This document shows, piece after piece, positions 22,416 through 50,160 of a stretch of DNA of 55,879 nt. The DNA is from a virus. Numbering within the stretch: position 1 is the first letter of the stretch; each line of letters begins with the position of its first letter. The stretch lies in the IMG/VR virus record IMGVR_UViG_3300036761_000980, positions 1 through 55,879 of that record; one strand, written 5' to 3'. Below the pieces are notes generated by a model. That model saw only the letters and a program-made list of their open reading frames with translations, had not been told where the DNA came from and did not search any database. Both the position numbers and the translations under genes were made by a program.

Positions 22416-22796
22416 ATGTTTACTTCTGGTGAGGATTTTCCACAGACATCTCCCGATCCATCACAAACGACAACTCCGATATGTACTCCATCAATTACGT
22501 TGACACCCACTCCATCAATTACGTTGACACCCACTCCATCAATTACGTTGACACCCACTCCATCAATTACACCGACATCCACCCCCTTATTTACCCCTCT
22601 AATTACGCCTTCGCTTACATCATCTGTTGAAATAATATATGTCGAATCTGATGATGTAAATCCATTACATATTCATTATGAAAAGGATTCGGCTACTGTT
22701 GTCAATGAAGATGATGTAGAAAAAATAAAACGGGATTTCAAGCCCAAAAAAACCTATTTAAGAGATGTTAGAAGTTCAAAGCGTAGACATACTTAA
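22416..22796 (+). CDS. Small protein with TPS/TPTPS repeats (126 aa)
   Basis: Residues about 15-70 are Thr/Ser/Pro repeats (PSITLTPTPSITLTPTPS). The C-terminal 55 residues are basic and end KRRHT. The linker is of the same kind as in the 1-4404 and 5021 genes, although this gene lies 16 kb away. It overlaps the amidase-like gene by 32 bases, so the pair may be assembled together on the virion. The function is unknown. Confidence 0.6.
   Translation: MFTSGEDFPQTSPDPSQTTTPICTPSITLTPTPSITLTPTPSITLTPTPSITPTSTPLFTPLITPSLTSSVEIIYVESDDVNPLHIHYEKDSATVVNEDDVEKIKRDFKPKKTYLRDVRSSKRRHT
22485..22575 (+). repeat. Three near-identical 30-base tandem repeats
   Basis: The unit (ccatcaattacgttgacacc plus cactcc or close variants) is repeated three times without change, encoding PSITLTPT. 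The identity between units indicates recent expansion. Confidence 0.8.
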
Positions 22797-31960: not shown

Positions 31961-34900
31961 ATGGCATTACAAAAGATAAATTGGACGCAAATTGATTCCG
32001 CCCATGTCCCCTCTGGTTTAACTATAGATTTAGGTTCAATACCCACACCAATTGATGGGACGTATACCGAAACCTTATTTATTGGGGAAGATGGTAATGA
32101 AGAAGTACTACATAACTTTTTTTGGTATCTTACTGGTTGTACAGGTAATACCGGAGCATCAGGAGATAGATATAGAACAACATCAACAACACAGCTAACA
32201 ATATCGGGGGGAACACAAACATTAATAGTTGGAACAGGATTATCATATATTCCAGGGCAGTCATTAATCATCGCAAAAGATGGTTACAATTATATGGAAG
32301 GTACTGTTGTCTCGTACACTGGGTCAACAGGAGAAATGATTGGGAATATAACATCATTTAGCGGATCTGGAACATATAATAGTTGGTATGTCAATTTAGG
32401 CGGAGCACAAGGAGCGGATGGAACTTCGGGTACAAGCGGAATATCTGGAACTAGCGGTTCTTCTGGAAGCTCAGGAACATCGGGTTCTAGCGGTTCTTCT
32501 GGAACAAGAGGAACATCCGGATCTTCAGGCTCATCAGGAACATCGGGTTCTCGTGGTACATCCGGATCTTCAGGTTCGTCTGGAACAAGTGGTACATCTG
32601 GTTCATCTGGAACAAGAGGAACATCAGGAACTTCAGGTTCTAGCGGATCATCTGGAACAAAAGGCACGTCTGGAACTTCGGGTTCTAGCGGGTCATCTGG
32701 GTCAAAAGGAACTTCAGGATCAAGTGGTTCGTCTGGAACAAGTGGATTATCCGGAACTTCAGGATCAAGTGGTTCTTCTGGAACAAGTGGATTATCCGGA
32801 ACTTCAGGATCAAGTGGTTCGTCTGGAATTTCAGGATCAAATGGAACATCTGGAACTTCAGGATCGAGCGGGTCTTCAGGGTCATCTGGTACATCTGGAA
32901 TAGATGGTTCTTCTGGAACATCTGGTACAAGTGGTTCGTCTGGCAGTTCTGGAACATCTGGAACATCTGGAACATCTGGAAGTTCTGGAACATCTGGAAT
33001 ATCAGGTACAAGCGGGTCATCGGGTAGTTCTGGAACATCTGGTACAAGCGGTTCGTCGGGTAGTTCTGGAACATCTGGTACAAGCGGGTCATCGGGATCA
33101 AGCGGTACATCAGGATCAAGCGGCACATCAGGTACAAGTGGGTCATCTGGCACAGCGGGCTCAAGTGGATCATCAGGTACGTCGGGGCAAGATGGGACAA
33201 ATTTTGGTACAAGCGGAACATCTGGAACATCTGGAACATCTGGTACAAGTGGTACATCTGGAACGTCAGGTGAACAGGGAATTATTGGGCCCCCAGGATT
33301 AGCTGGAACAAGTGGAACATCAGGAATAGATGGTTCTTCAGGAACATCAGGAATAGATGGTTCTTCTGGAACATCTGGCAGTTCTGGATCATCAGGTACA
33401 TCTGGAACATCTGGCACAACGGGCACATCAGGTACAAGCGGTTCATCTGGCACAGCGGGTTCAAGTGGATCATCGGGTACATCAGGGCAAGATGGTACAA
33501 ACTTTGGCACGAGCGGCACAAGTGGCACATCTGGAATAGATGGATCATCAGGATCAAGTGGAACATCAGGATCATCAGGATCAAGTGGAACATCAGGTGA
33601 GCAAGGAGTTATTGGCCCTCCAGGATTATCTGGATCACATGGAACATCGGGTTCAAGTGGTTCTTCAGGAACATCTGGAATAGACGGATCATCTGGCACA
33701 TCTGGAATAGATGGATCACACGGGACATCTGGTACATCTGGAATAGATGGGTCTAGCGGCACATCAGGATCTTCAGGATCATCGGGTGTTGGTACATCTG
33801 GTACATCTGGTACATCTGGTACAAGTGGAACATCTGGAATAGACGGATCATCGGGATCAAGCGGAACATCAGGAGAACAAGGAGTTATTGGACCACCAGG
33901 ATTATCAGGAACATCGGGTTCAAGTGGTTCTTCAGGAACATCTGGAGTAGATGGATCATCTGGTACATCTGGTACAGATGGAACTAGTGGGTCATCTGGA
34001 TCATCTGGATCATCAGGTGTTGGAACATCTGGAACATCTGGAACATCTGGAATAGATGGTTCATCTGGCACATCTGGAATAGACGGGTCGTCTGGAACAT
34101 CTGGTATAGATGGATCATCTGGAACATCTGGAATAGACGGATCATCTGGAACAAGCGGAACTTCGGGATTTGGGTCATCTGGCACATCTGGGTCATCAGG
34201 TGTTGGTACATCAGGTACAAGCGGAACATCAGGTGAGCCAGGAATTATTGGGCCGCCAGGAGTGCCAGGAACTAGCGGAACATCGGGTTCTTCAGGATCA
34301 TATGGTACTAGCGGAACATCGGGTTCAAGTGGATCTTCTGGAACATCTGGAATAGACGGATCATCTGGAACATCTGGAATAGAGGGGTCGTCTGGAACAT
34401 CTGGTATAGATGGATCATCTGGAACATCTGGAATAGACGGATCATCTGGAACATCTGGATCATCTGGATCATCGGGTGTTGGGACATCTGGGACATCTGG
34501 AACATCTGGCACATCTGGAACAAGTGGGTCATCTGGATCAAGCGGGACATCAGGTGATCAAGGAATTATTGGTCCACCAGGAGTGTCAGGAACATCTGGA
34601 ACTTCAGGGTCTTCGGGAACATCTGGTTCTAGTGGATCATCAGGAATATCTGGATCTAGTGGAACTTCTGGCACTGACGGAACATCTGGTTCTAGTGGTT
34701 CTTCGGGAACATCAGGGTCATCAGGGTCATCTGGAGTAGGTACGTCAGGAACAAGTGGAACATCAGGTGAGCAGGGAGTTATCGGTCCTCCAGGATTATC
34801 TGGATCGCATGGAACATCTGGCTCAAGTGGTTCTTCAGGCACATCTGGAACAAGCGGAACATCTGGAACTTCAGGTTCTAGTGGATCATCAGGAATTGAT

Positions 34901-37900
34901 GGATCTTCGGGCTCATCTGGAACATCAGGTACAAGTGGGTCTTCAGGTTCAGCTGGAACTAGTGGATCGTCTGGATCGTCAGGTGTTGGAACGTCTGGAA
35001 CGTCTGGAACGTCTGGAACGTCTGGAACGTCTGGAATAGATGGATCTTCAGGAACAAGTGGGTCTTCAGGTTCATCTGGAACATCGGGTACAAGTGGGTC
35101 TTCAGGCTCATATGGAACAAGCGGAACTTCAGGATCAAGTGGATCGTCTGGCACAAATGGAACATCGGGTTCTAGTGGATCATCTGGAACATCAGGTTCT
35201 AGCGGATCATCAGGTATAAATGGTTCATCAGGCTCATCGGGAAGTTCTGGCTCAAGTGGGTCTTCAGGATCAAGCGGCTCAAGTGGATCATCAGGATCAA
35301 GTGGATCTTCAGGATCAAGTGGATCTTCAGGATCAAGCGGATCTTCAGGAACCAGTGGATTATCAGGAACATTTGGTACTTCAGGTACTAGTGGTTCATC
35401 TGGGTCATATGGAACGAGCGGGACATCTGGAACTTCAGGAACATCAGGAATTTCGGGGTCTTCAGGAACTTCAGGATCAAAGGGAACTTCAGGAACAAGC
35501 GGAACGTCTGGTACAAGCGGATTACATGGATTATCTGGATCACATGGAACATCTGGTTCAAGTGGTTCTTCAGGAACATCAGGAACATCAGGAATTGATG
35601 GATCAAGTGGGACATCTGGTCCAGGTGGTTCTTCAGGAACATCTGGAATAGATGGATCATATGGAACATCAGGGACATCAGGAGCGTCAGGTTCATCTGG
35701 AGAGTCTGGATCGCATGGAACATCAGGAACATCAGGAGCATCAGGTTCATCTGGAGAATCTGGATCGCATGGAACATCTGGAACATCTGGAACAAGTGGT
35801 ATTTCAGGAGATAAGTATCAAACAACGTCATCTACATGTTTAACTATATCTGGTATAACACAAACACTCACGGTTTTAAGTGGATTATCATATAGCGCTG
35901 GACAATCATTAATTATTGGATTTGACGGGTCAAATTATATGACTGGTACGGTTACATCATATAATCCATCAACAGGAGCAATGGTTGGAAATATTTTATC
36001 TACTGTTGGTTCTGGATTTTATTGCGATTGGGATGTAAACTTAGGAGGGGCTCAAGGCGCTGATGGATCGCATGGAACATCTGGAACTTCTGGTACAAGC
36101 GGATCATCAGGTTCTTCTGGTACAAGCGGATCATCAGGCTCTTCTGGCACAAGTGGATCATCAGGTAGTTCCGGAACATCTGGCACAAGTGGTACATCTG
36201 GAATAGACGGATCATCTGGTACATCAGGATCTAGTGGTTCTTCAGGTTCAAGTGGCGCTGGGGTATCGGGTACAACTGATAATGATTTTTATTATGATAT
36301 TGATACAGATACATTATATGTACCAAATATAACTTTAAATGGTTCGATTATAATTGCAACTAATCTTCCTGTTGGAGATGATAATGGAACTAAAATAGGT
36401 TTAAGTGGTGATACATTTTATGTTGTGACAGGAATTACAACAGGATCATCAGGAACTTCAGGTACATCTGGAGCGTCAGGTTCATCAGGAGAATCTGGAT
36501 CACATGGAACTTCAGGAACTTCAGGAGCATCAGGTTCATCAGGGGAATCTGGGTCGCATGGCACATCTGGAACATCTGGTTCAAGCGGAAGTTCTGGATC
36601 AACAGGTACAAGTGGTTCTAGTGGATCTTCAGGAACGAGTGGTACATCAGGTATATCGGGCACAAGTGGCTCTTCTGGCTCTTCAGGCACAAGTGGAACA
36701 TCCGGATCAAGTGGAAGTTCAGGAACAAGTGGAACTAGTGGTTCATCAGGTAGTTCTGGAACATCTGGCACTTCTGGAACCAGCGGAGCATCAGGAACAA
36801 GTGGTTCTTCTGGATCATCTGGTACTAGTGGATCATCAGGTAGCTCAGGTACAAGCGGATCTTCTGGATCATCAGGCACATCTGGCACTAGCGGATCATC
36901 AGGAAGTTCAGGAACAAGTGGTACATCGGGAACAAGTGGTTCTTCTGGAACATCAGGATCGAGCGGGTCATCTGGAACTTCAGGCACAAGTGGTTCATCT
37001 GGTTCTTATGGTACAAGCGGAACATCTGGTACAAGTGGATCATCAGGATCTTCTGGAACATCTGGAAGTTCGGGATCATCTGGAACATCTGGTACAAGTG
37101 GATCATCAGGTTCTTCTGGCACAAGCGGAGGTTCAGGATCATCTGGGACAAGTGGAACATCTGGAACCAGTGGTTCATCTGGTAGTTCTGGGACAAGTGG
37201 AACATCAGGTTCGTCTGGCAGTTCTGGAACATCTGGTTCATCTGGTAGTTCAGGAACATCAGGTACAAGTGGTTCATCTGGTAGTTCTGGAACAAGCGGT
37301 AGTTCAGGATCTTCTGGCACAAGTGGAACATCTGGTACTAGTGGTTCATCGGGTTCATCTGGAACTAGTGGAACTTCTGGAACATCAGGTATATCGGGCA
37401 CAAGTGGTTCTTCTGGCTCTTCAGGTACAAGCGGGACATCAGGATCAAGTGGAAGTTCAGGTACAAGCGGGACATCAGGATCAAGTGGAAGTTCAGGCAC
37501 AAGTGGGACATCAGGATCAAGTGGAAGTTCAGGCACAAGTGGGACATCAGGAATATCTGGAACAAGCGGTAGTTCAGGATCTTCTGGCACTTCTGGTACG
37601 AGCGGATCTTCTGGTTCATCTGGAACAAGCGGTAGTTCAGGATCTTCTGGTACTTCAGGCACAAGTGGTGGTTCAGGTTCATCTGGAACAAGTGGAACAT
37701 CTGGAACTAGTGGTTCATCAGGTTCATCAGGAACATCAGGCACAAGCGGTTCATCTGGAAGCTCAGGCACAAGCGGAACATCTGGATCAAGTGGATCTTC
37801 AGGAACATCAGGTACAAGCGGTAGTTCAGGTTCGTCTGGTACTTCAGGCACAAGTGGTTCATCAGGTTCATCTGGAACATCGGGTTCGTCTGGTAGTTCT

Positions 37901-39676
37901 GGAACAAGCGGTAGTTCAGGATCTTCTGGTACAAGTGGCGGTTCGGGTTCATCTGGAACATCAGGTACAAGCGGATCATCTGGAACATCTGGTACGAGTG
38001 GCACATCTGGAACATCTGGTACGAGTGGCACATCTGGAAGTTCGGGATCATCTGGAACATCTGGCACAAGTGGATCTAGCGGGTCTTCTGGAACAAGTGG
38101 ATCTTCTGGTACATCTGGAACAAGTGGTTCATCAGGATCAAGTGGCACATCTGGAAGTTCAGGATCATCAGGCACATCTGGAAATTCTGGATCATCTGGC
38201 ACAAGTGGATCTTCTGGTAGTTCTGGAACATCTGGAACAAGTGGGTCTTCTGGGTCATCTGGAACAAGTGGATCGTCTGGAAGCTCAGGAACATCTGGCA
38301 CAAGTGGATCTTCTGGAAGTTCAGGGTCATCTGGCATAAGTGGATCTTCTGGAACTAGTGGGTCAAGTGGATCTTCAGGAACTAGTGGAAATTCTGGATC
38401 ATCAGGAACATCTGGCACTAGTGGATCGTCTGGTACTTCAGGAACATCTGGTACTTCTGGTACAAGCGGATCTAGCGGGTCTTCCGGTACAAGCGGTAGT
38501 TCAGGAACATCTGGAACAAGCGGCACATCTGGATCTAGTGGTTCATCAGGAACAAGCGGATCGTCTGGTAGTTCTGGAACATCTGGCACTTCAGGGACAT
38601 CTGGTATTTCTGGTACAAGCGGATCTAGCGGGTCTTCTGGCACAAGCGGTAGTTCAGGATCATCTGGTACTTCAGGAGTGAGTGGAACATCAGGTTCATC
38701 GGGTAGTTCAGGCACAAGTGGGTCAAGTGGTTCATCTGGAACAAGCGGATCATCTGGTAGTTCTGGAACATCTGGAACAAGCGGTACATCTGGATCTAGT
38801 GGTTCATCTGGAACAAGCGGATCATCTGGTAGTTCTGGAACATCTGGAACAAGCGGCACATCTGGATCTAGTGGTTCATCAGGAACAAGCGGATCATCAG
38901 GTAGTTCCGGAACATCTGGCACAAGTGGTACATCTGGAATAGACGGATCATCTGGTACATCAGGATCTAGTGGTTCTTCAGGTTCAAGTGGTGCGGGTGT
39001 ATCAGGTATAACCGATAGTGATTTTTATTATGACATCGATACAAATACATTATATACTCCTAATATAACATTAAATGGTTCAACTATAATTGCAACTAAT
39101 CTTCCTGTTGGATCCGATAATGGGACTAAAATAAGTTTAAGTGGTGATACATTTTATGTTGTAACAGGAATTACGACTGGTACATCTGGAACATCTGGAA
39201 CTTCAGGAGCATCGGGTTCATCTGGAGAATCTGGATCACATGGAACATCTGGAACTTCAGGTACAAGTGGATCAAGCGGCTCGAGTGGTTATAGTGGTAC
39301 AACATATTCTGGATTTTATTATTTTAATGGATGTTTATACGCTGATTGTGTAATTATAAATGGATCATATAAAATAAATTCAGTAATATTAACAGGTCTT
39401 ACTAGTACAGGATCAACAATTACATTAATATCAAAAACATATTGTAGCGGGGCGTTTTTTGATTATTATGTACAAGATGGGTCTAATATGAGAATAGGTA
39501 CAGTAATGAGTGTTTGGGATGGTACAAATATATCATATACTGATTATTCAACTACGGATATTGGAGATTCATCGCCAGTCTCATTCACTGCTAGTATAGA
39601 TGGATCTAATGTAAAATTAGAAGCAGAGATATCATCTGGAACTTGGACAATAAAACTCGGTATTAGATTAATATAA
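31961..39676 (+). CDS. Giant collagen-like fibre protein (2571 aa)
   Basis: The N-terminal attachment domain is about 147 residues. Four Gly-X-Y segments (about 2100 residues, mainly GTS, GSS and GIDGSS) are broken by small folded modules: DKYQTTSSTCLTISG at about 1281-1362, and two near copies of FYYDIDTDTLYVPNITLN at about 1440-1490 and 2350-2405. A C-terminal head (from about 2445) resembles other fibre tips. Gly at every third position implies a trimeric collagen-like rod. At the textbook rise of 0.286 nm per residue it could approach 0.6 micrometre. It is very poor in Pro and rich in Ser/Thr, so glycans may stabilise it. I infer a long tail or head fibre. Confidence 0.85.
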   Translation: MALQKINWTQIDSAHVPSGLTIDLGSIPTPIDGTYTETLFIGEDGNEEVLHNFFWYLTGCTGNTGASGDRYRTTSTTQLTISGGTQTLIVGTGLSYIPGQSLIIAKDGYNYMEGTVVSYTGSTGEMIGNITSFSGSGTYNSWYVNLGGAQGADGTSGTSGISGTSGSSGSSGTSGSSGSSGTRGTSGSSGSSGTSGSRGTSGSSGSSGTSGTSGSSGTRGTSGTSGSSGSSGTKGTSGTSGSSGSSGSKGTSGSSGSSGTSGLSGTSGSSGSSGTSGLSGTSGSSGSSGISGSNGTSGTSGSSGSSGSSGTSGIDGSSGTSGTSGSSGSSGTSGTSGTSGSSGTSGISGTSGSSGSSGTSGTSGSSGSSGTSGTSGSSGSSGTSGSSGTSGTSGSSGTAGSSGSSGTSGQDGTNFGTSGTSGTSGTSGTSGTSGTSGEQGIIGPPGLAGTSGTSGIDGSSGTSGIDGSSGTSGSSGSSGTSGTSGTTGTSGTSGSSGTAGSSGSSGTSGQDGTNFGTSGTSGTSGIDGSSGSSGTSGSSGSSGTSGEQGVIGPPGLSGSHGTSGSSGSSGTSGIDGSSGTSGIDGSHGTSGTSGIDGSSGTSGSSGSSGVGTSGTSGTSGTSGTSGIDGSSGSSGTSGEQGVIGPPGLSGTSGSSGSSGTSGVDGSSGTSGTDGTSGSSGSSGSSGVGTSGTSGTSGIDGSSGTSGIDGSSGTSGIDGSSGTSGIDGSSGTSGTSGFGSSGTSGSSGVGTSGTSGTSGEPGIIGPPGVPGTSGTSGSSGSYGTSGTSGSSGSSGTSGIDGSSGTSGIEGSSGTSGIDGSSGTSGIDGSSGTSGSSGSSGVGTSGTSGTSGTSGTSGSSGSSGTSGDQGIIGPPGVSGTSGTSGSSGTSGSSGSSGISGSSGTSGTDGTSGSSGSSGTSGSSGSSGVGTSGTSGTSGEQGVIGPPGLSGSHGTSGSSGSSGTSGTSGTSGTSGSSGSSGIDGSSGSSGTSGTSGSSGSAGTSGSSGSSGVGTSGTSGTSGTSGTSGIDGSSGTSGSSGSSGTSGTSGSSGSYGTSGTSGSSGSSGTNGTSGSSGSSGTSGSSGSSGINGSSGSSGSSGSSGSSGSSGSSGSSGSSGSSGSSGSSGSSGSSGTSGLSGTFGTSGTSGSSGSYGTSGTSGTSGTSGISGSSGTSGSKGTSGTSGTSGTSGLHGLSGSHGTSGSSGSSGTSGTSGIDGSSGTSGPGGSSGTSGIDGSYGTSGTSGASGSSGESGSHGTSGTSGASGSSGESGSHGTSGTSGTSGISGDKYQTTSSTCLTISGITQTLTVLSGLSYSAGQSLIIGFDGSNYMTGTVTSYNPSTGAMVGNILSTVGSGFYCDWDVNLGGAQGADGSHGTSGTSGTSGSSGSSGTSGSSGSSGTSGSSGSSGTSGTSGTSGIDGSSGTSGSSGSSGSSGAGVSGTTDNDFYYDIDTDTLYVPNITLNGSIIIATNLPVGDDNGTKIGLSGDTFYVVTGITTGSSGTSGTSGASGSSGESGSHGTSGTSGASGSSGESGSHGTSGTSGSSGSSGSTGTSGSSGSSGTSGTSGISGTSGSSGSSGTSGTSGSSGSSGTSGTSGSSGSSGTSGTSGTSGASGTSGSSGSSGTSGSSGSSGTSGSSGSSGTSGTSGSSGSSGTSGTSGTSGSSGTSGSSGSSGTSGTSGSSGSYGTSGTSGTSGSSGSSGTSGSSGSSGTSGTSGSSGSSGTSGGSGSSGTSGTSGTSGSSGSSGTSGTSGSSGSSGTSGSSGSSGTSGTSGSSGSSGTSGSSGSSGTSGTSGTSGSSGSSGTSGTSGTSGISGTSGSSGSSGTSGTSGSSGSSGTSGTSGSSGSSGTSGTSGSSGSSGTSGTSGISGTSGSSGSSGTSGTSGSSGSSGTSGSSGSSGTSGTSGGSGSSGTSGTSGTSGSSGSSGTSGTSGSSGSSGTSGTSGSSGSSGTSGTSGSSGSSGTSGTSGSSGSSGTSGSSGSSGTSGSSGSSGTSGGSGSSGTSGTSGSSGTSGTSGTSGTSGTSGTSGSSGSSGTSGTSGSSGSSGTSGSSGTSGTSGSSGSSGTSGSSGSSGTSGNSGSSGTSGSSGSSGTSGTSGSSGSSGTSGSSGSSGTSGTSGSSGSSGSSGISGSSGTSGSSGSSGTSGNSGSSGTSGTSGSSGTSGTSGTSGTSGSSGSSGTSGSSGTSGTSGTSGSSGSSGTSGSSGSSGTSGTSGTSGISGTSGSSGSSGTSGSSGSSGTSGVSGTSGSSGSSGTSGSSGSSGTSGSSGSSGTSGTSGTSGSSGSSGTSGSSGSSGTSGTSGTSGSSGSSGTSGSSGSSGTSGTSGTSGIDGSSGTSGSSGSSGSSGAGVSGITDSDFYYDIDTNTLYTPNITLNGSTIIATNLPVGSDNGTKISLSGDTFYVVTGITTGTSGTSGTSGASGSSGESGSHGTSGTSGTSGSSGSSGYSGTTYSGFYYFNGCLYADCVIINGSYKINSVILTGLTSTGSTITLISKTYCSGAFFDYYVQDGSNMRIGTVMSVWDGTNISYTDYSTTDIGDSSPVSFTASIDGSNVKLEAEISSGTWTIKLGIRLI
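32401..35806 (+). repeat. Collagen-like Gly-X-Y tract 1 (about 1135 residues)
   Basis: Nine-base units encode GTS, GSS and related triplets. Six Pro-containing modules (E-Q/P-G-I/V-I-G-PPG) and six G-V-G register breaks occur between about 33270 and 34990. The codons for Ser and Gly vary, so the DNA is less identical than the protein. Confidence 0.9.
36048..36270 (+). repeat. Collagen-like tract 2 (about 74 residues)
   Basis: A short Gly-X-Y run between two folded modules, starting with GAQGADG as tract 1 does. Confidence 0.85.
36439..38999 (+). repeat. Collagen-like tract 3 (about 854 residues)
   Basis: Almost pure GTS/GSS triplets with rare GGS, GNS and GIS. It has neither the Pro modules nor the G-V-G breaks of tract 1. 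All other reading frames are also largely open because of the repeat. Confidence 0.9.
39178..39294 (+). repeat. Collagen-like tract 4 (about 39 residues)
   Basis: Short run (GASGSSGESGSHGTSG) leading into the C-terminal head domain. The same sequence follows the first copy of the YYDIDT module. Confidence 0.85.
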
Positions 39677-39677
39677 A

Positions 39678-42449
39678 ATGGCAAATTACGGAGTAGTTAT
39701 TGATCAAAATGCACCACATCTAGTGGAATTAAAACCTCGAACAGTAGAAGGTGGATATGGATTATTATATAACTGGTATGTAGTAAAAGTGACTCCAGTT
39801 TCTATTGCGCCCGCAGGATGGCATGTGCCAACAATAACAGAACTGCAAACATTATCAACATTTCTGGGTGGAGATGCAATTTCAGGAGGAAAATTAAAAG
39901 AAACGGGTTTGGATCACTGGGATACACCAAATACAGGAGCAGATAATTCCTCAGGATTTACAGCTCTCGGTGCAGGAGCTAGAGATGTTGATGGTACATT
40001 TTGCTGCATTAAAGAGATATTTGGAGTATGGGCATCAACGGAAACAGGAGGTGATGGTGATTGTTTAGCATTACAAAAATATGATGATGCTACTATAATT
40101 ACGACAGTTGCCAAAAAAACTGGTATCTCTATTCGTTTAATTAAAAATAATTCTATCGATCCCGGTACAGTAACAGATATTGATGGTAATGTTTATCCTA
40201 CTGTCAAAATTGGTACTCAGGTATGGATGGCATTAAATTTGAAAGTTACAAAATATAATGATGGGACTTCGATTCCGGAAATTACTGATAATGCTGCATG
40301 GTCAGGAGATACCGCAGGTGCACTATGTGCATATGATAATAACTGGGATTATGTGTGGAATCGTTATCTAATTTATTTATTACCTAACGCTCCCGTGATT
40401 GAAAATCAATCATTTCAGATATACGAAGAACAATCATCTGGAACAACAGTTGGTCATGTTATTTCTACCGATCCAAATAATATTACATACTCAATAACTG
40501 CAGGAAATACTGGAAATGCATTTATAATTAATGCATCAACTGGATATTTAACAACAAATACAGTATTAGATTTTGAAACCCTTAGTGGATATTCATTAAC
40601 AATAGAGGTTGTAAATAATTCATTTCCATCTTTATCAGATACAGCTATTGTTAGTGTTGAAGTATTAAAATTATATCATGTATGCGTCGATAATGGATTA
40701 CATTTCAATGGTTATTCCGAAGATTTAATTGGATTATTAACTGTTGGCGTTGTTCATGCAACAACTGGAACCCTTACAGATTATGTAATAGAATGGCATT
40801 TAAACACTATAAGTGGATCAACTGTATTTATTACTGGCAATAGCGGAAATACGGATCCTTCTATCCAGTCGTTCCACCCAATAAATTCCGAATTAGTTCA
40901 AGCGGGTGAATTATATCCTGTTGTGCGTTATGCTAATGTTAATGGAATATTATATAGTGCTTATTCTAATCTTGGTTATTTATATTCGCCTGATTTATTG
41001 ACTTGTTTACCATCAATTACTGTTGTTTCAATGACTTGTTCAAATGGATCCGCAGGTTTATTTGGACATACTGTTCAATATATAAATACTACGCAACCAA
41101 GTCAACTCGCCAATAGATCATTGACATATGGATTAAATCTTGATAGTTCTTCGAAACAAATAAGTTACCAATTTTATGGATTTGCTATAGCTGACAGAAT
41201 AACTACGTCATATTGTACAACTGGCGGTACGAAAACAGTAATAGATGACTGGGTTGTAGGATTGGATTGCACTGGAAATACGTTTAATTCTTTACCTAAA
41301 TTATACACCAATCAATGGATAAAGAGATCTTTAAGTCTGACTGGATTTACATATCAAAGCGGTGATTATTTATTATTCGATACGTTCCCGTCATATAACG
41401 CTCCTGGAAATACTGATACTAACTGGCGATTAAGTATAAAATGTTTTAGTGGTGATAATTTAATTGATTTTGGATTCCAACCAAATACTGTTAATGATAT
41501 TGATACTGGAGCAACAATGAATTTAGTATGGAATACAGGTAATTGTTCTTATGATTTAACAGTTATAACAGGTGTACCAAGAGTTCCATTATCATATAAT
41601 AGTGATATGTACCATTATACAGAAGCTGGGGCCGGTGGTTCTTACGAGTGGACGACTGGCCAAACTATTTCTGTTCTTCAATATACAGGAAGTTCATTAA
41701 CTTGGGTGCCATATACTGCATATGGTAGTCCTTATTTACTTAATGGTGTATTAAATATAAAATTAACTGGTGGTACTCATAATCTTCTTTATACGTTTAC
41801 AGATGCGATGGATTATAATCATTATAAAACTGGATATACAACAAATATTACAAGTTCTCATTGGACTGATTGGACATCAGATGTAAATAGTTTAAATCAT
41901 TATAAATTTATAAATGATGTATTTAAAGTTTCAATGACAAGTGGTGACACTTTTTATACCTATGGATTATATGTTGATAGCCAATCAGTATTCACATTTG
42001 ATGATGTAAATAAAACAATTTCAATTGCACTTGTTCCTCAAACTGGTGTATATACTGGAGTTGCTTGTGATAAATCATCTGATAATTTTAATTGGATTAT
42101 AACTTATACGAATAATTTATACTCTGGAACAACTTGGGATTTAAATACAATTTGGGGTACTCAAAATCCATTCCCATTTATGTATCTTACTTATTGGCCA
42201 TATGTTTATACGGAAGCAACTATGCAAACATATATGTTTCTTTATAATAACTTATTGGATACAAGCACGCCATTAAGTCCTGAATGGTTCTTATCTTCTG
42301 GAGTTTGGTATTTCTGGAAAGTTTGCCTCAATTTAAAGATTGATAATGTGGTAGATCCATTAAATAATTATAGTGTATATAGTGGATTAAATTCAGATGG
42401 TAGTGTAAGTAGTCCAGTTGTTTGGACATTAATTAAAAGAGTACCGTAA
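39678..42449 (+). CDS. Fibre/adhesin with permuted FISUMP and cadherin-like domains (923 aa)
   Basis: It starts one base after the collagen gene stop codon. Residues about 26-155 contain YGLLYNWYVVK, PAGWHVPTITELQTL, GGKLKETGLDHWDTPNTGA and FTALGAGARDVDGTF, the second half of a FISUMP domain. Residues about 160-225 contain TDIDGNVYPTVKIGTQVWMA and KYNDGTSIPEITDNAAW, the first half. A cadherin-like domain follows at about 236-330 (FQIYEEQSSGTTVGHVISTD). The rest (about 335-923) is beta-rich and unrecognised. FISUMP domains occur on Bacteroidetes cell surfaces, so acquisition from a host is plausible. It is probably a receptor-binding or fibre-tip protein. Confidence 0.75.
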   Translation: MANYGVVIDQNAPHLVELKPRTVEGGYGLLYNWYVVKVTPVSIAPAGWHVPTITELQTLSTFLGGDAISGGKLKETGLDHWDTPNTGADNSSGFTALGAGARDVDGTFCCIKEIFGVWASTETGGDGDCLALQKYDDATIITTVAKKTGISIRLIKNNSIDPGTVTDIDGNVYPTVKIGTQVWMALNLKVTKYNDGTSIPEITDNAAWSGDTAGALCAYDNNWDYVWNRYLIYLLPNAPVIENQSFQIYEEQSSGTTVGHVISTDPNNITYSITAGNTGNAFIINASTGYLTTNTVLDFETLSGYSLTIEVVNNSFPSLSDTAIVSVEVLKLYHVCVDNGLHFNGYSEDLIGLLTVGVVHATTGTLTDYVIEWHLNTISGSTVFITGNSGNTDPSIQSFHPINSELVQAGELYPVVRYANVNGILYSAYSNLGYLYSPDLLTCLPSITVVSMTCSNGSAGLFGHTVQYINTTQPSQLANRSLTYGLNLDSSSKQISYQFYGFAIADRITTSYCTTGGTKTVIDDWVVGLDCTGNTFNSLPKLYTNQWIKRSLSLTGFTYQSGDYLLFDTFPSYNAPGNTDTNWRLSIKCFSGDNLIDFGFQPNTVNDIDTGATMNLVWNTGNCSYDLTVITGVPRVPLSYNSDMYHYTEAGAGGSYEWTTGQTISVLQYTGSSLTWVPYTAYGSPYLLNGVLNIKLTGGTHNLLYTFTDAMDYNHYKTGYTTNITSSHWTDWTSDVNSLNHYKFINDVFKVSMTSGDTFYTYGLYVDSQSVFTFDDVNKTISIALVPQTGVYTGVACDKSSDNFNWIITYTNNLYSGTTWDLNTIWGTQNPFPFMYLTYWPYVYTEATMQTYMFLYNNLLDTSTPLSPEWFLSSGVWYFWKVCLNLKIDNVVDPLNNYSVYSGLNSDGSVSSPVVWTLIKRVP

Positions 42450-42533: not shown

Positions 42534-45506
42534 ATGAGTAATGAATTTGTAGCCCGTAATGGTGTAATCATTAAATCAATTGCAACTGGTACAACCGAAA
42601 CTAAGATTTTAGTAGTGGATGATACTGGACTTATGAAATTAAGAACATCAATTTCTTTAGGCGGAACATCTGGAACAAGCGGAACATCTGGAACTTCAGG
42701 TTCAAGTGGTTCATCTGGAACAAGCGGATCGTCTGGTTCATCTGGTACATCTGGCGGTTCTGGTTCTTCAGGTACAAGCGGAACTTCAGGTTCGAGTGGT
42801 TCATCTGGCACAAGCGGATCATCTGGTTCATCTGGCACAAGCGGATCATCTGGTTCATCTGGAACAAGCGGAAGTTCAGGTTCTAGTGGTTCATCTGGAA
42901 CAAGAGGAACATCTGGTAGTTCTGGATCTTCTGGAACTTCTGGAACTAGTGGGACATCTGGTAGTTCTGGATCTTCTGGAACTAGTGGGACATCTGGTAA
43001 TTCTGGATCTTCTGGAACTAGTGGGACGTCTGGTAGTTCTGGATCTTCTGGAACTAGTGGAACATCTGGTAGTTCTGGAACATCACCAACTGGAGGAACT
43101 GGAGGTGATTCACTTTGGTATCTTATACCAGAAACTACTACAATAGCTCCTATAGCTAATGAGTCAATTCAAGTTAAAAATATTACTATTGGAGTAGAAA
43201 GTGATAACATGATTAAAGGTCTGGATTCGGAGACAGGAGGGAATCTTCAAATTTATGGAGGGGATAGTTTAATTGACATAGATGGTAGTAAAGGAGGAGA
43301 TGTTTGGATTGTAGGCGGATCTTCCAGTAATACCACTGGAGAAACAGGAGGAGATGTTTGGATTATAGGTGGATTTTCGCCAAATCCTGATCTATATAAT
43401 AGGTCTAATGTTTTTATAAGTAATGATATAGCGTACCTTCGATTTAAAACTATAGAAAATAATCAGATATGGTTTAGCCCAGGCGGAGAAGGTAGCGGCG
43501 CTGGTCAGAATTTTTATCTTGCAGGGGGAAATAGTGAATCAGATCCCGCAGGCGACATAATAATAAAAGGAGGAGATCAAATAGAAGCAACTACTGGCGG
43601 CCGCGGCGGAAATGTTATTATTTCTGGTGGAACTACTAGCAATGCTGGTGAACTTTATGGTGGAGACATTTATATTATTGGGGGAACGAGAGCAAATTCC
43701 GATATAAATAATAGGTCTAAAGTTTATATTGGTAATGAAAAATGGAGCCTTGAACTTAAAACTATGTATCTACCTGAAGTACTTGGAGATTATGGTGGTG
43801 AAACGATATGGCTTAGCCCAAGAGATCAAGATACGGGTAATACGCTTAATGGATATAGTTTTATACTTCAAGGAGGAAATAATAATAATGATCTAATACC
43901 CGAAATGCTTGATCCTATGGATGCAGGATCTATATTGGTAGTCGGAGGATCTCAAGGAGCAAGTAGTGGAGGTAAAGGTGGAGATGTTATAATTCAAGGC
44001 GGACTCACTACAGCTAGTAGTCCTACTGGAACTTCAGGTGGACATGTTTATATTCAAGGTGGATCTGGTAACACTATTGGAGGACGTGTTTATATTATTG
44101 GAGGCACTACTAATGCTGAAGGGGGATCAGGTTTAGGAGGTGATGTTGTATTTCAGCGTGGATATGGCGTAAGTGTTGGAGGAGAATTTTTATTTGAAAA
44201 TCTACCAGAAGCAACTGAAGGAGATCCTTATGTTGTTTCTTATAATTCATCAAGTGGTAGAATAAGTTATAGAGCAATATCTGGCGTTACTGAATTACTT
44301 TGGTATGAATCAGGTGTAAATTTAATATCTCCTGTAACTGCTTCTAATGGTATTGGTGTTGGTGATGTTCGGATCGGTGGCACTGGCGGAGGTAATCAAA
44401 TTTATGGAATAGAAGGTACTGGCGGTGAACCTGGCGGTAGTTTGATTGTGCATGGAGGAGATGCTTCATCTAGTGGAGCTGGGGGTGGATTCCTTGAGCT
44501 TCGTGCTGGAGATACTTTAATTAATGATCAACTTGATGGTGGATATGTTGAGATTCATGGTGGACATAATAATAATGGTACTGCTGGTACTGGGGGACGT
44601 GTTTATATTACGGGTGGAGGTGTTAGTAGTAGTAATGGATATGGTGGAGATATAATTATTTCACCTGGAATATGTGATAATAATAGTACCCTTAGTATGG
44701 GTGATGTTTTTCTCGGAACTAATCCCAATGATCCCGAAGCCTTTACCATAAAAATAGAGGATTTACCTGATGGACAGGTATTAATAGCATTAGAAGATGA
44801 TTATACACACGATTTTATAATTCGAGGAGCAAACACTTCTGGTAATACTCTAAATGACAATGGAGGTAACTTATATTTACTTGGAGGCGACGAATATACA
44901 ACCAATTCTGGCACTGGAGGTAGAGGTGGTGATGTTTATATTACTGGAGGAACAACAAATAGTCATTTTGCAATAGGTGGAAGTATTAATATTTTTGGTG
45001 GAGATAGTGAAAATGCTATGGGTGGTGATGTTTTTATAGCTGGGGGGCATGGCACTAGTGGTTATGGAAATGTGTATATTGCAAATCCTGTCGATGAAGG
45101 TGGATCATTACCAGTTGATTATGGCACTAATCTTCTTAATGTTTTATATGATGACGAGTCGGGGAAATTATCATATAAACAACCAACCGAACAGGTAGTT
45201 ACTTTTAATACAGGAACAACAACGATTGATTGGACAGTTTCAGAATATGCATATCTCGAACTAACTGATAATGTTTCTCTAATTCTCTTTACTAATCCAA
45301 ATAAAATAGGTGAATATTTCTTAAATATTAAACATATTGGTGACTCTTGGGAAGTAAGTGAATGGGATAGTGACATTTGGTGGCCACAAGGTGTATATCC
45401 CGTATTGTCAGATACCGAAAATGATATTGATCATTTTAGATTTTATTGGAATGGTAGTATTTATCTTGGCCTACTTATGTCTAAGTTTAGATCTATGTTA
45501 ACATAA
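42534..45506 (+). CDS. Collagen-stalked fibre with Gly-rich beta-repeat head (990 aa)
   Basis: A short N-terminal anchor (about 1-42) begins MSNEFVARNGVIIKSIATGT, a form found in fibre-attachment domains. A collagen-like stalk (about 43-183) and then about 650 residues of repeats built on GGDVxIxGG follow, for example GGDVWIVGG, GGNVIISGG and GGRVYIIGG. These probably form a beta-solenoid with one strand per repeat. The C-terminus (TIDWTVSEYAYLELTDNVSL) looks like a tail-fibre tip. The gene shares the collagen vocabulary with the 31961 gene. Confidence 0.75.
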   Translation: MSNEFVARNGVIIKSIATGTTETKILVVDDTGLMKLRTSISLGGTSGTSGTSGTSGSSGSSGTSGSSGSSGTSGGSGSSGTSGTSGSSGSSGTSGSSGSSGTSGSSGSSGTSGSSGSSGSSGTRGTSGSSGSSGTSGTSGTSGSSGSSGTSGTSGNSGSSGTSGTSGSSGSSGTSGTSGSSGTSPTGGTGGDSLWYLIPETTTIAPIANESIQVKNITIGVESDNMIKGLDSETGGNLQIYGGDSLIDIDGSKGGDVWIVGGSSSNTTGETGGDVWIIGGFSPNPDLYNRSNVFISNDIAYLRFKTIENNQIWFSPGGEGSGAGQNFYLAGGNSESDPAGDIIIKGGDQIEATTGGRGGNVIISGGTTSNAGELYGGDIYIIGGTRANSDINNRSKVYIGNEKWSLELKTMYLPEVLGDYGGETIWLSPRDQDTGNTLNGYSFILQGGNNNNDLIPEMLDPMDAGSILVVGGSQGASSGGKGGDVIIQGGLTTASSPTGTSGGHVYIQGGSGNTIGGRVYIIGGTTNAEGGSGLGGDVVFQRGYGVSVGGEFLFENLPEATEGDPYVVSYNSSSGRISYRAISGVTELLWYESGVNLISPVTASNGIGVGDVRIGGTGGGNQIYGIEGTGGEPGGSLIVHGGDASSSGAGGGFLELRAGDTLINDQLDGGYVEIHGGHNNNGTAGTGGRVYITGGGVSSSNGYGGDIIISPGICDNNSTLSMGDVFLGTNPNDPEAFTIKIEDLPDGQVLIALEDDYTHDFIIRGANTSGNTLNDNGGNLYLLGGDEYTTNSGTGGRGGDVYITGGTTNSHFAIGGSINIFGGDSENAMGGDVFIAGGHGTSGYGNVYIANPVDEGGSLPVDYGTNLLNVLYDDESGKLSYKQPTEQVVTFNTGTTTIDWTVSEYAYLELTDNVSLILFTNPNKIGEYFLNIKHIGDSWEVSEWDSDIWWPQGVYPVLSDTENDIDHFRFYWNGSIYLGLLMSKFRSMLT
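42661..43085 (+). repeat. Collagen-like tract (about 141 residues)
   Basis: GTS/GSS triplets with one GTRGTSG, a GGS and a GNS. The second half contains nearly identical 45-base units (GTSGTSGSSGSSGTS), pointing to recent expansion. Confidence 0.9.
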
Positions 45507-45548: not shown

Positions 45549-46778
45549 ATGAAAATATTATTAATTCAAAAATTTTCAATTATAGAGCCTCTTGGTTTAA
45601 TGGTTATTGGAAAAGCAATGATGGATGAGGGACACGATGTTCATTATTATCTTTATCATGGAAAAAGAATACCTCTTTATAATATTGATTTAAGAGATTT
45701 TAATTTGGTGGGATTTAGTACATATACAGGTAATCATATTGAAGTATATGAGGCTTGTAAAGAAGCAAAAAAATATGGTGTAATAACAGTAATTGGAGGC
45801 CCACATGCATCTTTTTTCTATAAAGAATGTAAAGAATATGCTGATTATGTATTCAGAGGTGAAAGTGTATTATCTTTTCCAAATATGGATGATAAAAAAA
45901 TCTATCCATTAGTTAATCCTGATTTGTTAATTCCTGATAGAGAAAATTTTTATTATTATTCGCCGATTCATAGAGATAATCGCATAAAAAATATAATGAC
46001 ATCTTTTGGTTGTCCATTTAGTTGTACATATTGTTATAATTCTCTATACAAAGAACTATATCCTGATGGTAAAGTACGATTAAGAACGGTTGACTCGATT
46101 ATTAAAGAAGCAAATTCATTAGATGCAGAATTAATATATTTCCAAGATGATTTTTTTGGATATAATAAGAAATGGTTAAAAGAATTTAATGAAAAATGGG
46201 GTAAAAGGCCATATCATGCCCAAATGAGAATTGAAACTCTTGATGATGAGAAACTTGATTTATTGATTGATAGTGGGTGCGTTGGTGCCACAATTGCAAT
46301 TGAAACATATGACGAAGAATATAGAGAAAAGGTATTAAAAAGAAAAATGCGAAATGATGTAATTCTTGTAAATTGTAGAAGATTATTGGACGCAGGAATA
46401 AAATTAAGAACAGAACAAATGCTCGGACTTCCAAATACAACATTTGAAGATGAATTAAATTTATTAAAATTAAATTGTCATATTAATCCAACAATTGCGT
46501 GGACAAGTATATTTCAACCATATCGTGGTACAGAATTAGGGGAATATTGCGTTAATAATAATTTATACAACGGAAATAATGAAGATGTTGATGATTCATT
46601 TTTTAAAAATACTGTACTAAATTACCCTAAAGAACGGAAAGAAGAAATAGTAAAATTACAACAAATATTTGCTTTATGCTCGCATATACCAAATGGATGG
46701 GAATATGCCGACCAAATAATAAAACATAATAACGATAATTTAAAAGAACACTTATATTCAATATTGTATAGAACATGA
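45549..46778 (+). CDS. B12-binding-domain radical SAM enzyme (409 aa)
   Basis: The N-terminal Rossmann-like B12-binding domain (about 1-130) has LGLMVIGKAMMDEGHDVHYY and VIGGPHASFF but no canonical D-x-H-x-x-G. The radical SAM core has the cluster motif C155-x3-C159-x2-C162 in CPFSCTYC. Later motifs (ELIYFQDDFFGYN, GVGATIAIETYDEEYREKVL in outline) match class B radical SAM enzymes. Such proteins methylate or rearrange unactivated carbons, often on glycans or natural products. ATGA overlap with the next gene places it in the glycosylation operon. The substrate is unknown. TATATTTA lies four bases before the start. Confidence 0.82.
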   Translation: MKILLIQKFSIIEPLGLMVIGKAMMDEGHDVHYYLYHGKRIPLYNIDLRDFNLVGFSTYTGNHIEVYEACKEAKKYGVITVIGGPHASFFYKECKEYADYVFRGESVLSFPNMDDKKIYPLVNPDLLIPDRENFYYYSPIHRDNRIKNIMTSFGCPFSCTYCYNSLYKELYPDGKVRLRTVDSIIKEANSLDAELIYFQDDFFGYNKKWLKEFNEKWGKRPYHAQMRIETLDDEKLDLLIDSGCVGATIAIETYDEEYREKVLKRKMRNDVILVNCRRLLDAGIKLRTEQMLGLPNTTFEDELNLLKLNCHINPTIAWTSIFQPYRGTELGEYCVNNNLYNGNNEDVDDSFFKNTVLNYPKERKEEIVKLQQIFALCSHIPNGWEYADQIIKHNNDNLKEHLYSILYRT

Positions 46779-49501
46779 AAATATTAGCGCATTGTTCATT
46801 TATAGGCACAACAGGATATGCTAACCACACTAGATCATTTTTTTGTGCATTAAACAAATATCATACTGTTAAAGTACGAAATTTAACTATTGGCAATGGA
46901 TGGAAAGGAATGAACAACACCCCGCACGACGATGAACCATATATTACAAAGGAAATGAAGGATATGTTAATTCTTCAAACTCTTTTCAATAATGATAAGT
47001 CCAGAACGGATTATCCGATGTATGATTATAAGGGTGATTTTAAACCTGATGTACATATCATATTACAAGATATGGATAATTATTATTTTTATGAAAATTA
47101 TGACGGATACAAAATAGGATTTTGTGTTTATGAATCAACAAGATATCCTGATCATTTTTTTCAGCGTTTATCATATTTTGACGAAATGTATGTTCCAACG
47201 CAATGGCAATTTGATTCTCTGGTTGAACAAGGATATCCCATTGAGAAGATTAAAATTGTTACCGAAGGTGTAGATATCGATGTGTTTAAACCTGCAAAAA
47301 AAATTATTAAAAAAGATAAATTTAGATTTTTATTATTTGGTAGATGGGATTATAGAAAATCAACAACTGAAATTATTAAAGCGTTTGGAGAAACATTTAA
47401 AGGTAATAATAATGTAGAACTTGTTTGTTCTGTTGAAAACCCATATCCAAGTGATGAAACACGATCTACCGCCGATAGAATTAAAAAATATAATGTTGAT
47501 TATGATAACATAAAATTTCTTGATTTTGTAAGTAGAAAAGAATATGTTGATTATTTGCAGCAAGGAGATGTTTTTGTTTCATGTGCGAGGAGTGAAGGAT
47601 GGGGATTACCTCTTTGTGAATCAATGAGTTGTGGTACTCCATCAATTTATTCAAATTGGGGAGCACAACTTCAATTTGCCAGAGATAAAGGTATTCCTGT
47701 TAAAATTTCACATATTAGACCCGCAAATATTGGTGATAAAGAAGTTGGCGGCGAATATTGTGAGCCAGATTTTGAAGATCTAGTTGTTCAAATGAAAAAC
47801 GCATATGAGAATTATAATGATTATAAAAAGAAAAGTTTAGAAGAATCAACATTAATACATAATGAATTTAATTGGGATAAAGTTGCAAAAGACGCTTCTA
47901 AAATCTTAGAAAAAAAAACCGATCCGTTTATTTTTGTTACAGCGGGAAATTTAGAATATATGCCGACGATTGAAAAATTAGTGGAATCCCTGAATGAATT
48001 TTCTAAAAATAAGGTTTTAGTATATGGAGTGGATTGTGATGTTCCATTCGAGTCGCCAAATATGATTAAACGAAGAATAAACCCATCTAAACACTCCAAA
48101 TATGATAGATGGTACTGGAAGCAGTATGCGTGTATCGAGTCATTAAATGAGAACTATGATCGTTTTATGTGGATCGATGGGGATGTTGTTGTAAATTATA
48201 ATATCGATACTATTGAGAAATATTTTCCACAAATTGAAAATTATCCATTATCCGATATTCATATACCAGAAGAATTTTCAGGATATTATATAGATGAAAA
48301 TAATAATAATAAAAACCAATTATTTAATGAAAATCTATGTAAATTATGGAATATAAACATTTCAAAGCCATATATGCATATCTGTATGTTTATTTATAAT
48401 AAAAATTGTAAATGGTGGTTTAATGAAATAATCAAGGAATACTTGACAGTTGATTTAAAATTATATGAAACATATTTCCTATGGAACGATGAGAGCATTG
48501 ATAATGGATTAAGGTGGAAATATGGATTTAAAAAACATCTTCCGTTATCTAATTTTGACACATCAGGGTATGATGGCGATGATGGATTTACTAAAGGAGT
48601 AATAAATGATTTTTATAAATTTTGGAACGAACCTGGCCCTCAAAATTTTGATAAAGTTTATGGATATAAATTTATTCCCAAGGATAAAGATCAAATAATT
48701 TATTTTCATGGGAATAAAGATCGTGAAGTTTCAGATAAAATGATTGAATTTATTAAATTTAAAAGAGATAATAATTTCTATCAATCTGAATATTTCTATA
48801 CCGATATTTATAACCTTAAAAATCTTGGAGAAATTAAAGATTTTGAAGGCGGCACAATGGATATTGCAAATAAATGTGGATGGGATTATGCGGTTTATCA
48901 TGAAATATATAATTTAAGGGATTATTACCTCAATCGAGAGAAAAGAATACGCGATGGTGATATTGTTGTTGATTTAGGCGGTAATATCGGTGTATTCACC
49001 AGATGGGCGTATAAAGAGGGGGCGAGTAAGGTAATTACATTTGAGCCCGATAAAAGATATTTTGAATTACTTCAATTAAACTCCGATCCTCGCACTGTAT
49101 TATTTAATGCCGCAATGAGTGATTCAATTGGTACAACCACATTATATGAAAGTGATCATCTTGGAGGATCAAATATTTTAGGGATACTAAATTGTACAAG
49201 AAGTTATAGTGTTAGAACATATACATTAGATTATCTATTTGAAACAGAATTAATTAATAAAATAGATTTTTTAAAAGTTGATATTGAAGGCGCCGAACAT
49301 CAGGTTTTTAAGGGAATATCGGATGAAAATTTAATGAAGATAAAAGCAATAGGAATGGAATATCATAATTGGGGCGGCGTCGATTATACGGAGGAACAAA
49401 GAACAGAGTTTATTAAAAGATTGAATAAATTAGGATTTAATTCACATATTTTATTTCTGGGATCAAATAATGTGCTACAAATGTTATATTTTTGGAGATG
49501 A
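46775..49501 (+). CDS. Three-domain fusion: GT4 glycosyltransferase, GT-A glycosyltransferase, FkbM methyltransferase (908 aa)
   Basis: Residues about 1-375 form a GT-B enzyme of GT4 type, with FLLFGRWDYRKSTTEIIKAF near 190 and the nucleotide-sugar motif EGWGLPLCESMSCGTPSIYS near 274. Residues about 383-640 are a GT-A-like domain with FVTAGNLEYMPTIEKLV and the D-x-D of MWIDGDVVV near 465. Residues about 725-908 are an FkbM methyltransferase, with VVDLGGNIGVFTRW, ITFEPDKRYFELLQLN and FLKVDIEGAEHQVFKG. The fusion implies sequential sugar addition and O-methylation on one substrate. I infer the Ser/Thr-rich fibre proteins encoded upstream. Confidence 0.82.
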   Translation: MKILAHCSFIGTTGYANHTRSFFCALNKYHTVKVRNLTIGNGWKGMNNTPHDDEPYITKEMKDMLILQTLFNNDKSRTDYPMYDYKGDFKPDVHIILQDMDNYYFYENYDGYKIGFCVYESTRYPDHFFQRLSYFDEMYVPTQWQFDSLVEQGYPIEKIKIVTEGVDIDVFKPAKKIIKKDKFRFLLFGRWDYRKSTTEIIKAFGETFKGNNNVELVCSVENPYPSDETRSTADRIKKYNVDYDNIKFLDFVSRKEYVDYLQQGDVFVSCARSEGWGLPLCESMSCGTPSIYSNWGAQLQFARDKGIPVKISHIRPANIGDKEVGGEYCEPDFEDLVVQMKNAYENYNDYKKKSLEESTLIHNEFNWDKVAKDASKILEKKTDPFIFVTAGNLEYMPTIEKLVESLNEFSKNKVLVYGVDCDVPFESPNMIKRRINPSKHSKYDRWYWKQYACIESLNENYDRFMWIDGDVVVNYNIDTIEKYFPQIENYPLSDIHIPEEFSGYYIDENNNNKNQLFNENLCKLWNINISKPYMHICMFIYNKNCKWWFNEIIKEYLTVDLKLYETYFLWNDESIDNGLRWKYGFKKHLPLSNFDTSGYDGDDGFTKGVINDFYKFWNEPGPQNFDKVYGYKFIPKDKDQIIYFHGNKDREVSDKMIEFIKFKRDNNFYQSEYFYTDIYNLKNLGEIKDFEGGTMDIANKCGWDYAVYHEIYNLRDYYLNREKRIRDGDIVVDLGGNIGVFTRWAYKEGASKVITFEPDKRYFELLQLNSDPRTVLFNAAMSDSIGTTTLYESDHLGGSNILGILNCTRSYSVRTYTLDYLFETELINKIDFLKVDIEGAEHQVFKGISDENLMKIKAIGMEYHNWGGVDYTEEQRTEFIKRLNKLGFNSHILFLGSNNVLQMLYFWR

Positions 49502-50160
49502 GTACACTGGATATAATAGCAAATTCATATGGAACAGATAAATCTTCCTATATGCACAATTATTGTGTTAAATATGAAAAATATTTACCATTTAATAGAT
49601 ATGATAATTTAAAAATATTAGAAATTGGAGTATTCCGAGGAGAATCATTAAGAACATGGAAAGATTATTTTTATCGTTCACAAATTATCGGTATTGACAT
49701 ATTACCCGAATGTAAGAACTACAAAGAAGATAGAATTAATATTGAAATTGGATCACAAATAGATGGTAATTTTTTAACTGAAGTTTCAAAAAAACACGGG
49801 CCATTTGATATGATATTAGATGATGGATCACATATGAATTCACATGTAATATACTCATTTGAACATTTATTTCCATCAATTACAACTGGCGGAGTTTATA
49901 TTATTGAAGATTGTACCACATCATATTGGAGTGATTTTGAAGGAGGATATTTGAAAGAAGGAACATCAATGGAATATTTTAAAAAATTAACCGATGATAT
50001 AAATTTTAGAGGATTACAATATGATGTAAACGGAAAGTTTCATCGGTACAGAAAAGAATTGGATCTTATTCCACTTTCACAAGAGCAACAACCATCCTGT
50101 AGAGTAGACATAGAATCAATAATTTTTTTAAACGGAATAATCATAATAACAAAACGATAA
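49498..50160 (+). CDS. Class I SAM methyltransferase, MycE-like sugar O-methyltransferase (220 aa)
   Basis: ATG at 49498 overlaps the previous stop (ATGA); a TTG at 49492 is less likely. The sequence has LDIIANSYGTDKSSYMHNY, ILEIGVFRGESLRTWKDYF (SAM site, about 42-60), IIGIDILPECKNY and FDMILDDGSHMNSHVIYSF. This is the layout of MycE/macrocin-type enzymes that methylate sugar hydroxyls using metal-bound Asp residues. Together with the FkbM domain it gives two methyltransferases for the glycan. Confidence 0.78.
   Translation: MSTLDIIANSYGTDKSSYMHNYCVKYEKYLPFNRYDNLKILEIGVFRGESLRTWKDYFYRSQIIGIDILPECKNYKEDRINIEIGSQIDGNFLTEVSKKHGPFDMILDDGSHMNSHVIYSFEHLFPSITTGGVYIIEDCTTSYWSDFEGGYLKEGTSMEYFKKLTDDINFRGLQYDVNGKFHRYRKELDLIPLSQEQQPSCRVDIESIIFLNGIIIITKR

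Follow-up and report, generated by a model that had tools for sequence, protein, structure and literature searches.

The 31961-39676 gene, on the plus strand of the window (the whole stretch of viral DNA analysed, 55,879 nt), is predicted from its domains and structure models to encode a collagen-like tail-fibre protein, presumably carried on the virion. The reading favoured here, to which a probability of about 0.6 is assigned, is that of a glycosylated collagen-type tail fibre whose sugar is supplied by a TibC/Aah-type transferase of the same phage. Glycosylation by the adjacent operon had been put forward in the original prediction as a guess; because the enzyme can now be assigned to a named family and is linked to such collagens in both directions of a genomic comparison, it can be treated as a hypothesis with a testable enzyme.

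A constrained Gly-X-Y shaft between beta domains

The frame is uninterrupted from the ATG at 31961 to the stop codon at 39676 and encodes 2571 aa, which match Pfam Collagen (PF01391) with 847 bits at a cut-off of 27.2. Twelve runs of at least five triplets each comprise 694 Gly-X-Y triplets, or 2082 residues. The X position is occupied by Thr in 309 and by Ser in 287 triplets, Y is Ser in 599 of the 694, and the commonest triplets are GTS (296) and GSS (266), with 886 Ser per chain inside the shaft triplets; Pro is found at 15 of the 1388 X/Y positions. The roughly 2100 residues with Gly at every third position, Thr/Ser at X and Ser at Y that had been claimed, and the very low Pro content, thus agree with the counts. 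No in-phase Gly substitution occurs in the 694 triplets, whereas residues other than Thr/Ser occupy 98 X positions and residues other than Ser occupy 95 Y positions. All four Gly codons are in use (379/194/70/51), as are both Ser codon boxes. The mixed codons together with the invariant Gly show that the pattern has been selected as protein and reflects neither chance nor mere DNA repetition. The small breaks in the shaft are insertions of one or two residues (in one case of 10) that each shift the phase, for example GVG-TS and GTN-F, as is likewise seen in other collagens.

All parts of the protein are encoded on the plus strand. The N-terminal peptide of residues 1-62 (31961-32146), of which 1-41 are conserved, is common to collagen and non-collagen fibres and is the probable virion anchor; the search was seeded with MALQKINW, which biases the invariance of the first eight residues, and an N-terminal query gave no matches in cellular genomes. 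Bead domain D follows at residues 65-150 (32153-32410) as a predicted beta fold (pLDDT 86), and then collagen block 1 (residues 148-1285, 32402-35815), which has eight short phase-shifting interruptions and includes GPP and GID triplets. A second copy of domain D (residues 1282-1367, 35804-36061), identical to the first at 58 of 84 aligned residues, leads to collagen block 2 (residues 1363-1434, 36047-36262, 24 triplets). Bead domain M, present at residues 1435-1494 (36263-36442) and again, with 56 of 64 residues identical, at residues 2347-2406 (38999-39178), flanks collagen block 3, the longest run, with 284 uninterrupted triplets (residues 1495-2346, 36443-38998). Collagen block 4 (residues 2407-2448, 39179-39304, 14 triplets) precedes the C-terminal tip domain (residues 2449-2571, 39305-39673), which is predicted to be all-beta.

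Domain D recurs between collagen runs in many relatives, with up to several copies per protein; a comparison with PDB folds gave no convincing match (best E 0.06), which does not in itself make it a new fold. Relatives of domain M were not found with a query covering 36245-36450. The tip domain model (pLDDT 81) superimposes on residues 169-281 of T4 gp9, in its C-terminal domain, with Z 12.0 and an rmsd of 2.2 over 105 residues; against tailspike C-termini Z is 10. One relative carries a C-terminal endosialidase chaperone domain, which is typical of trimeric fibres. PHROG tail-fibre families also match the protein; most of these matches fall in the low-complexity shaft and count for little by themselves. 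The shared anchor, the beaded collagen-type shaft and the gp9-like beta tip point to a tail or side-tail fibre, in line with the collagen-like fibre originally proposed. Promoter and terminator scans showed no excess over shuffles.

Among the 103 relatives listed (19,993 triplets), Glu (X:Y 229:32), Leu (212:32) and Ile (487:62) prefer X and Arg (27:97) prefers Y, as they do in known collagens. From the invariant Gly and this X/Y asymmetry we infer a triple-helical shaft. The shaft might otherwise be a flexible disordered Gly/Ser linker or a polyglycine-II bundle, with neither triple helix nor sugar, GSSGSSG being a classic flexible linker and polyglycine-II with GXX repeats being known from a phage adhesin. 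This is very improbable, as the lack of Gly substitution beside variable X and Y positions and the asymmetric placement of charged and branched residues argue against it, and the longest unbroken arrays of the relatives are ill-suited to a folded-back bundle. The triple helix remains the preferred form, with one feature that sets the phage proteins apart: in the same 103 relatives Thr is concentrated at X (9515:1132), with Ser at Y, the opposite of cellular bacterial collagens, in which Thr favours Y (PMC8968730).

At X, Thr and Ser follow one another in a non-random order in the window protein (lag-2 autocorrelation -0.40, z -8.8), unlike the Gly wobble bases, which are random. A structural period (7/2 helix) was rejected as an explanation because periods differ among relatives and none is common; X positions in other phages have different periods, some with strict Thr/Ser alternation. 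Ser codons at Y alternate, with AGY following AGY in the next triplet 12 times where 44 were expected. Over 101 collagen ORFs the count is 1124 against 1800 expected, with z below -2 in 51 ORFs and above 2 in five, perhaps because slippage, or the draining of one tRNA, is selected against. Two minus-strand ORFs lie antisense to the collagen gene, at 32290-34512 (740 aa) and 37006-38922 (638 aa); they follow from the repeat and its codon usage and are unlikely to be genes.

Length, copy number and stability of the shaft

At 0.286 nm per residue the 2082 shaft residues would span 595 nm if triple-helical, and the earlier figure of 0.6 micrometre holds as arithmetic, given a triple helix throughout. 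It does not hold for a single rod, since the shaft is segmented by two domains of about 85 residues (one N-terminal, one internal), two domains of 60 residues and eight short interruptions, and the longest unbroken piece would measure 244 nm.

The length is also less singular than the original prediction implied. Ser/Thr collagens are common in viral contigs: a scan, in which the sample was defined by the GTS/GSS codon pattern and loci were cut at their ends, returned at least 120 stretches. Among the 105 distinct ORFs listed with at least 20 triplets, at least four have 694 or more, one of them with 843 unbroken, and the collagen ORFs of a 735-kb huge phage encode 2816, 2830 and 3488 aa. An exceptional length was rejected on both counts, and the window protein is instead one long member of a widespread class. 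Collagen is not mentioned in the text of the paper on the 735-kb phage (PMC7162821), and phage collagens are still given a length of about 18 residues in a recent review (PMC8968730).

That the repeat number is an artefact of assembling a repetitive gene on a metagenomic contig is hardly credible. Exact duplicates inside the ORF reach at most 101 nt and no 127-mer is repeated, so an assembly collapse is unlikely. An independent IMG/VR assembly carries the 47-triplet array of the neighbouring gene 42534-45506 without a single base change, its SNPs lying beyond the array; this between-sample comparison covers the smaller array and one second assembly, the long array coming from a single sample. 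Long arrays are also present in the manually curated genomes of the 735-kb phage. The triplet number of the collagen gene is probably right.

Host-guest peptides become less stable when Pro at X or Hyp at Y is replaced (PMC7824840), which makes another stabiliser for the low-Pro shaft plausible; the earlier statement that one is needed is reasonable. The shaft could also be hyperglycosylated without being triple-helical, as a mucin-like bottle-brush or an extended single chain stiffened by sugars, given that it has almost no Pro and no Hyp, that Ser/Thr fill two-thirds of the positions and that Thr-Pro-Ser mucin-like linkers occur in other proteins of the same phage. A mucin, however, needs neither strict Gly periodicity nor a collagen-like X/Y asymmetry, and trimeric tip and chaperone domains likewise speak against one, so that this form of the shaft is considered quite unlikely.

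A TibC/Aah-type transferase and its linkage to Ser/Thr collagens

One nucleotide after the collagen gene begins a plus-strand gene (39678-42449) for a 923-aa protein with Fib_succ_major (FISUMP) and cadherin domains. Its FISUMP domain, which is C-type-lectin-like, suggests a Bacteroidota host. The general O-glycosylation motif of Bacteroidota is D-S/T-A/I/L/V/M/T; modification of the shaft by this host system was rejected, as the motif is found only at residues 12 and 1450, in non-collagen parts, and in none of the triplets. A Bacteroidota host has likewise been predicted for the largest huge phages (PMC7162821). The next gene (42534-45506, plus strand) encodes a second collagen-like structural protein of 990 aa with 47 triplets at 42663-43085. 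A run of four overlapping plus-strand genes begins 42 nt downstream of it, encoding a B12-binding radical SAM enzyme (45549-46778), a fusion of a GT4 glycosyltransferase with an FkbM methyltransferase (46775-49501), a methyltransferase (Methyltransf_24; 49492-50160) and a 716-aa protein (50160-52310), the C-terminal half of which (51180-52295) is a predicted TibC/Aah-type O-heptosyltransferase. Thr-Pro-Ser-rich mucin-like repeats were observed in the window proteins 1-4404, 5021-6352 and 22416-22796, one of them with a right-handed beta-helix; these are possible further O-glycosylation targets.

Residues 341-712 of the 716-aa protein score 263.3 bits with TIGR04414, the model of the autotransporter strand-loop-strand O-heptosyltransferase (BAHT), above its equivalog cut-off of 200, and the protein matches TibC structures (4rap) with an E of 4e-51. 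Pfam gave a weak GT9 match alone, PHROGs gave no family at E 0.001, and the N-terminal 340 residues (50160-51179) match no library family. The catalytic base of TibC, Asp-110, is kept as D435, and the four iron-finger cysteines as C668, C671, C685 and C697. Thr-226, Lys-230 and Trp-305, which bind the sugar in TibC, are kept as well, and Arg-286 is replaced by Ile614. A hydrophobic residue stands at this position in the window enzyme and in every one of the 48 distinct phage enzymes from IMG/VR; Arg is present in the enzyme of the 735-kb phage and in 23 of 27 cellular ones. With Arg-286 replaced, the donor sugar may differ or the activity may be altered, and heptose is not certain.

By its sequence the 716-aa protein is classed as a predicted enzyme, a BAHT relative from a distinct phage clade. 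In a tree of 78 BAHT enzymes all phage members fall into a single group (100/99) that excludes the 21 cellular ones. Six contigs from bacterial or archaeal metagenome-assembled genomes (MAGs), labelled as cellular, fall inside the phage clade, two of them with short collagen runs nearby; they may be phage contigs binned into MAGs. Since the collagen label requires at least 11 changes on the tree, the association of BAHT with collagen both recurs and is lost.

The linkage was assessed in both directions. A BAHT above the cut-off was found in 24 of 49 viral records picked for a Ser/Thr collagen, and in 17 of these 24 the nearest distance between the two was below 10 kb, where 5.6 were expected from rotated positions and the maximum in 5000 rotations was 13. 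The corresponding counts were 16 of 30 against 7.5 expected for GT4 and 8 of 20 against 4.1 for FkbM; the terminase control was near collagen in 0 of 23, with 4.5 expected. Conversely, among loci found by BAHT alone, 37 of 80 had a Ser/Thr collagen in their flanks. Counted as distinct loci, collagen was present at 19 of 49 BAHT loci and at 0 of 52 control loci found by the SbcC gene of the same phage group (p 1e-7). In the closest relatives the collagen ORF begins about 60 nt after the BAHT gene. Gene clustering cannot separate an enzyme that acts on the fibre from one located in the fibre region, although terminase is not close. A search of open-access papers for collagen together with glycosyltransferases in phages gave no report of such a link.

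A triple-helical fibre might need no sugar, with the glycosyltransferases acting on other fibres, the capsid, DNA or the host envelope and lying nearby for other reasons. Half of the collagen-bearing records are without BAHT and have the same triplet make-up, the comparison of records with and without the enzyme showing no difference except for a marginal one in Pro, and bacterial collagens of cellular origin can be stable even though they have no hydroxyproline (PMC8968730). Moreover, 27 of 48 distinct phage BAHT loci have no collagen inside the fetched flanks, suggesting that BAHT may have other targets. The records without BAHT are shorter, however (median 64 vs 123 kb), and are on that ground regarded as fragments; the two-way linkage stands against the controls, and the acceptors of BAHTs, which O-glycosylate proteins, are Ser-rich and repetitive, TibC and Aah modifying Ser and not Thr on repetitive adhesins (PMC4358343). 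A fibre without sugar is therefore judged unlikely, though less so than either a mucin-like or a linker-like shaft. Ser at Y in most triplets was counted in favour of shaft glycosylation by a Ser-specific enzyme of this kind. Glycosylation by the adjacent operon is thus strengthened by the TibC/Aah-type transferase and GT4 in the gene run and by their linkage to collagens, and weakened by the unchanged composition and the BAHT loci that lack collagen.

The proposed fibre and known systems

In the proposed model the 31961-39676 gene would encode a trimeric tail or side-tail fibre, docked to the virion by the N-terminal peptide that it shares with other fibres. The proline-free Gly-(Thr/Ser)-Ser shaft with its beta-domain beads would, with a triple helix along its whole length, project about 0.6 micrometre at most and would end in the gp9-like beta tip, whose fold is predicted. 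Inside the infected cell, the phage's own 50160-52310 transferase would O-glycosylate shaft serines, the GT4 and the methyltransferases encoded alongside it might extend or cap the sugar, and the hydrophilic coat would replace (hydroxy)proline as stabiliser and hold the rod extended. As a general rule, that a distinct TibC-type clade of environmental phages hyperglycosylates Ser of their own proline-free collagen fibres, with sugar instead of (hydroxy)proline stabilising rods several hundred nm long, is given even odds. Although a Pro-free collagen would be expected to have little stability, genes of this kind occur widely in viral contigs; the linkage to a solved and assayable enzyme family makes the question of how such a collagen holds together approachable by experiment. 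If the model is true, phages would hold collagen together with sugars in place of hydroxyproline. Stable recombinant collagen could then be obtained by a new post-translational route, TibC-type glycosylation would reach beyond autotransporters to phage virions, and it would become clear what the glycosyltransferase genes common in large phages act on.

The 735-kb huge phage (LR756501/LR756503) shares with the window the C-terminal tip (45%), bead domain D (44%), the N-terminus of the second collagen protein (49% identical to that of a 2373-aa collagen protein), Thr/Ser triplets, and a GT4 and a BAHT near the collagen gene, there fused in one gene; it differs in having longer ORFs, more Thr at X and many more collagen genes. 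In the isolated Microcystis phage Mel-JY01 (PP395634), no more than 2 kb separates a Ser/Thr collagen of 202 triplets from a downstream GT4-BAHT fusion, which is homologous to the window proteins 46775-49501 (40% identity over the GT4 part) and 50160-52310; its collagen is shorter, and GT4 and BAHT form one gene. The deposited minus-strand gene at 739-2298 of PP395634.1 is antisense to the plus-strand ORF with these triplets and is probably a mis-annotation.

The EPcl proteins of EHEC prophages (PMC3368898) belong to phage tail fibres too and have trimeric domains on either side of a collagen segment. They were shown to be triple-helical and appear as stalked dumbbells by EM; they are much shorter, with ordinary collagen composition and, as far as described, no linked glycosyltransferase. 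In BclA and other glycosylated bacterial collagens, sugar is thought to stabilise hydroxyproline-free collagen, as proposed here, but these have Thr at Y (31-48%) and Pro at X (PMC8968730), where the window protein has Thr at X, Ser at Y and nearly no Pro. The TibC/Aah BAHTs resemble the window enzyme in TIGR04414 score, catalytic Asp, iron-finger cysteines and the logic of Ser acceptors on repetitive surface proteins. Phages are not mentioned in the TibC paper (PMC4358343), and the phage enzymes form their separate clade with Ile, Val or Leu in place of Arg-286. The neighbour of TibC and Aah is an autotransporter substrate, whereas the neighbours of the window enzyme are collagen-like fibre genes.
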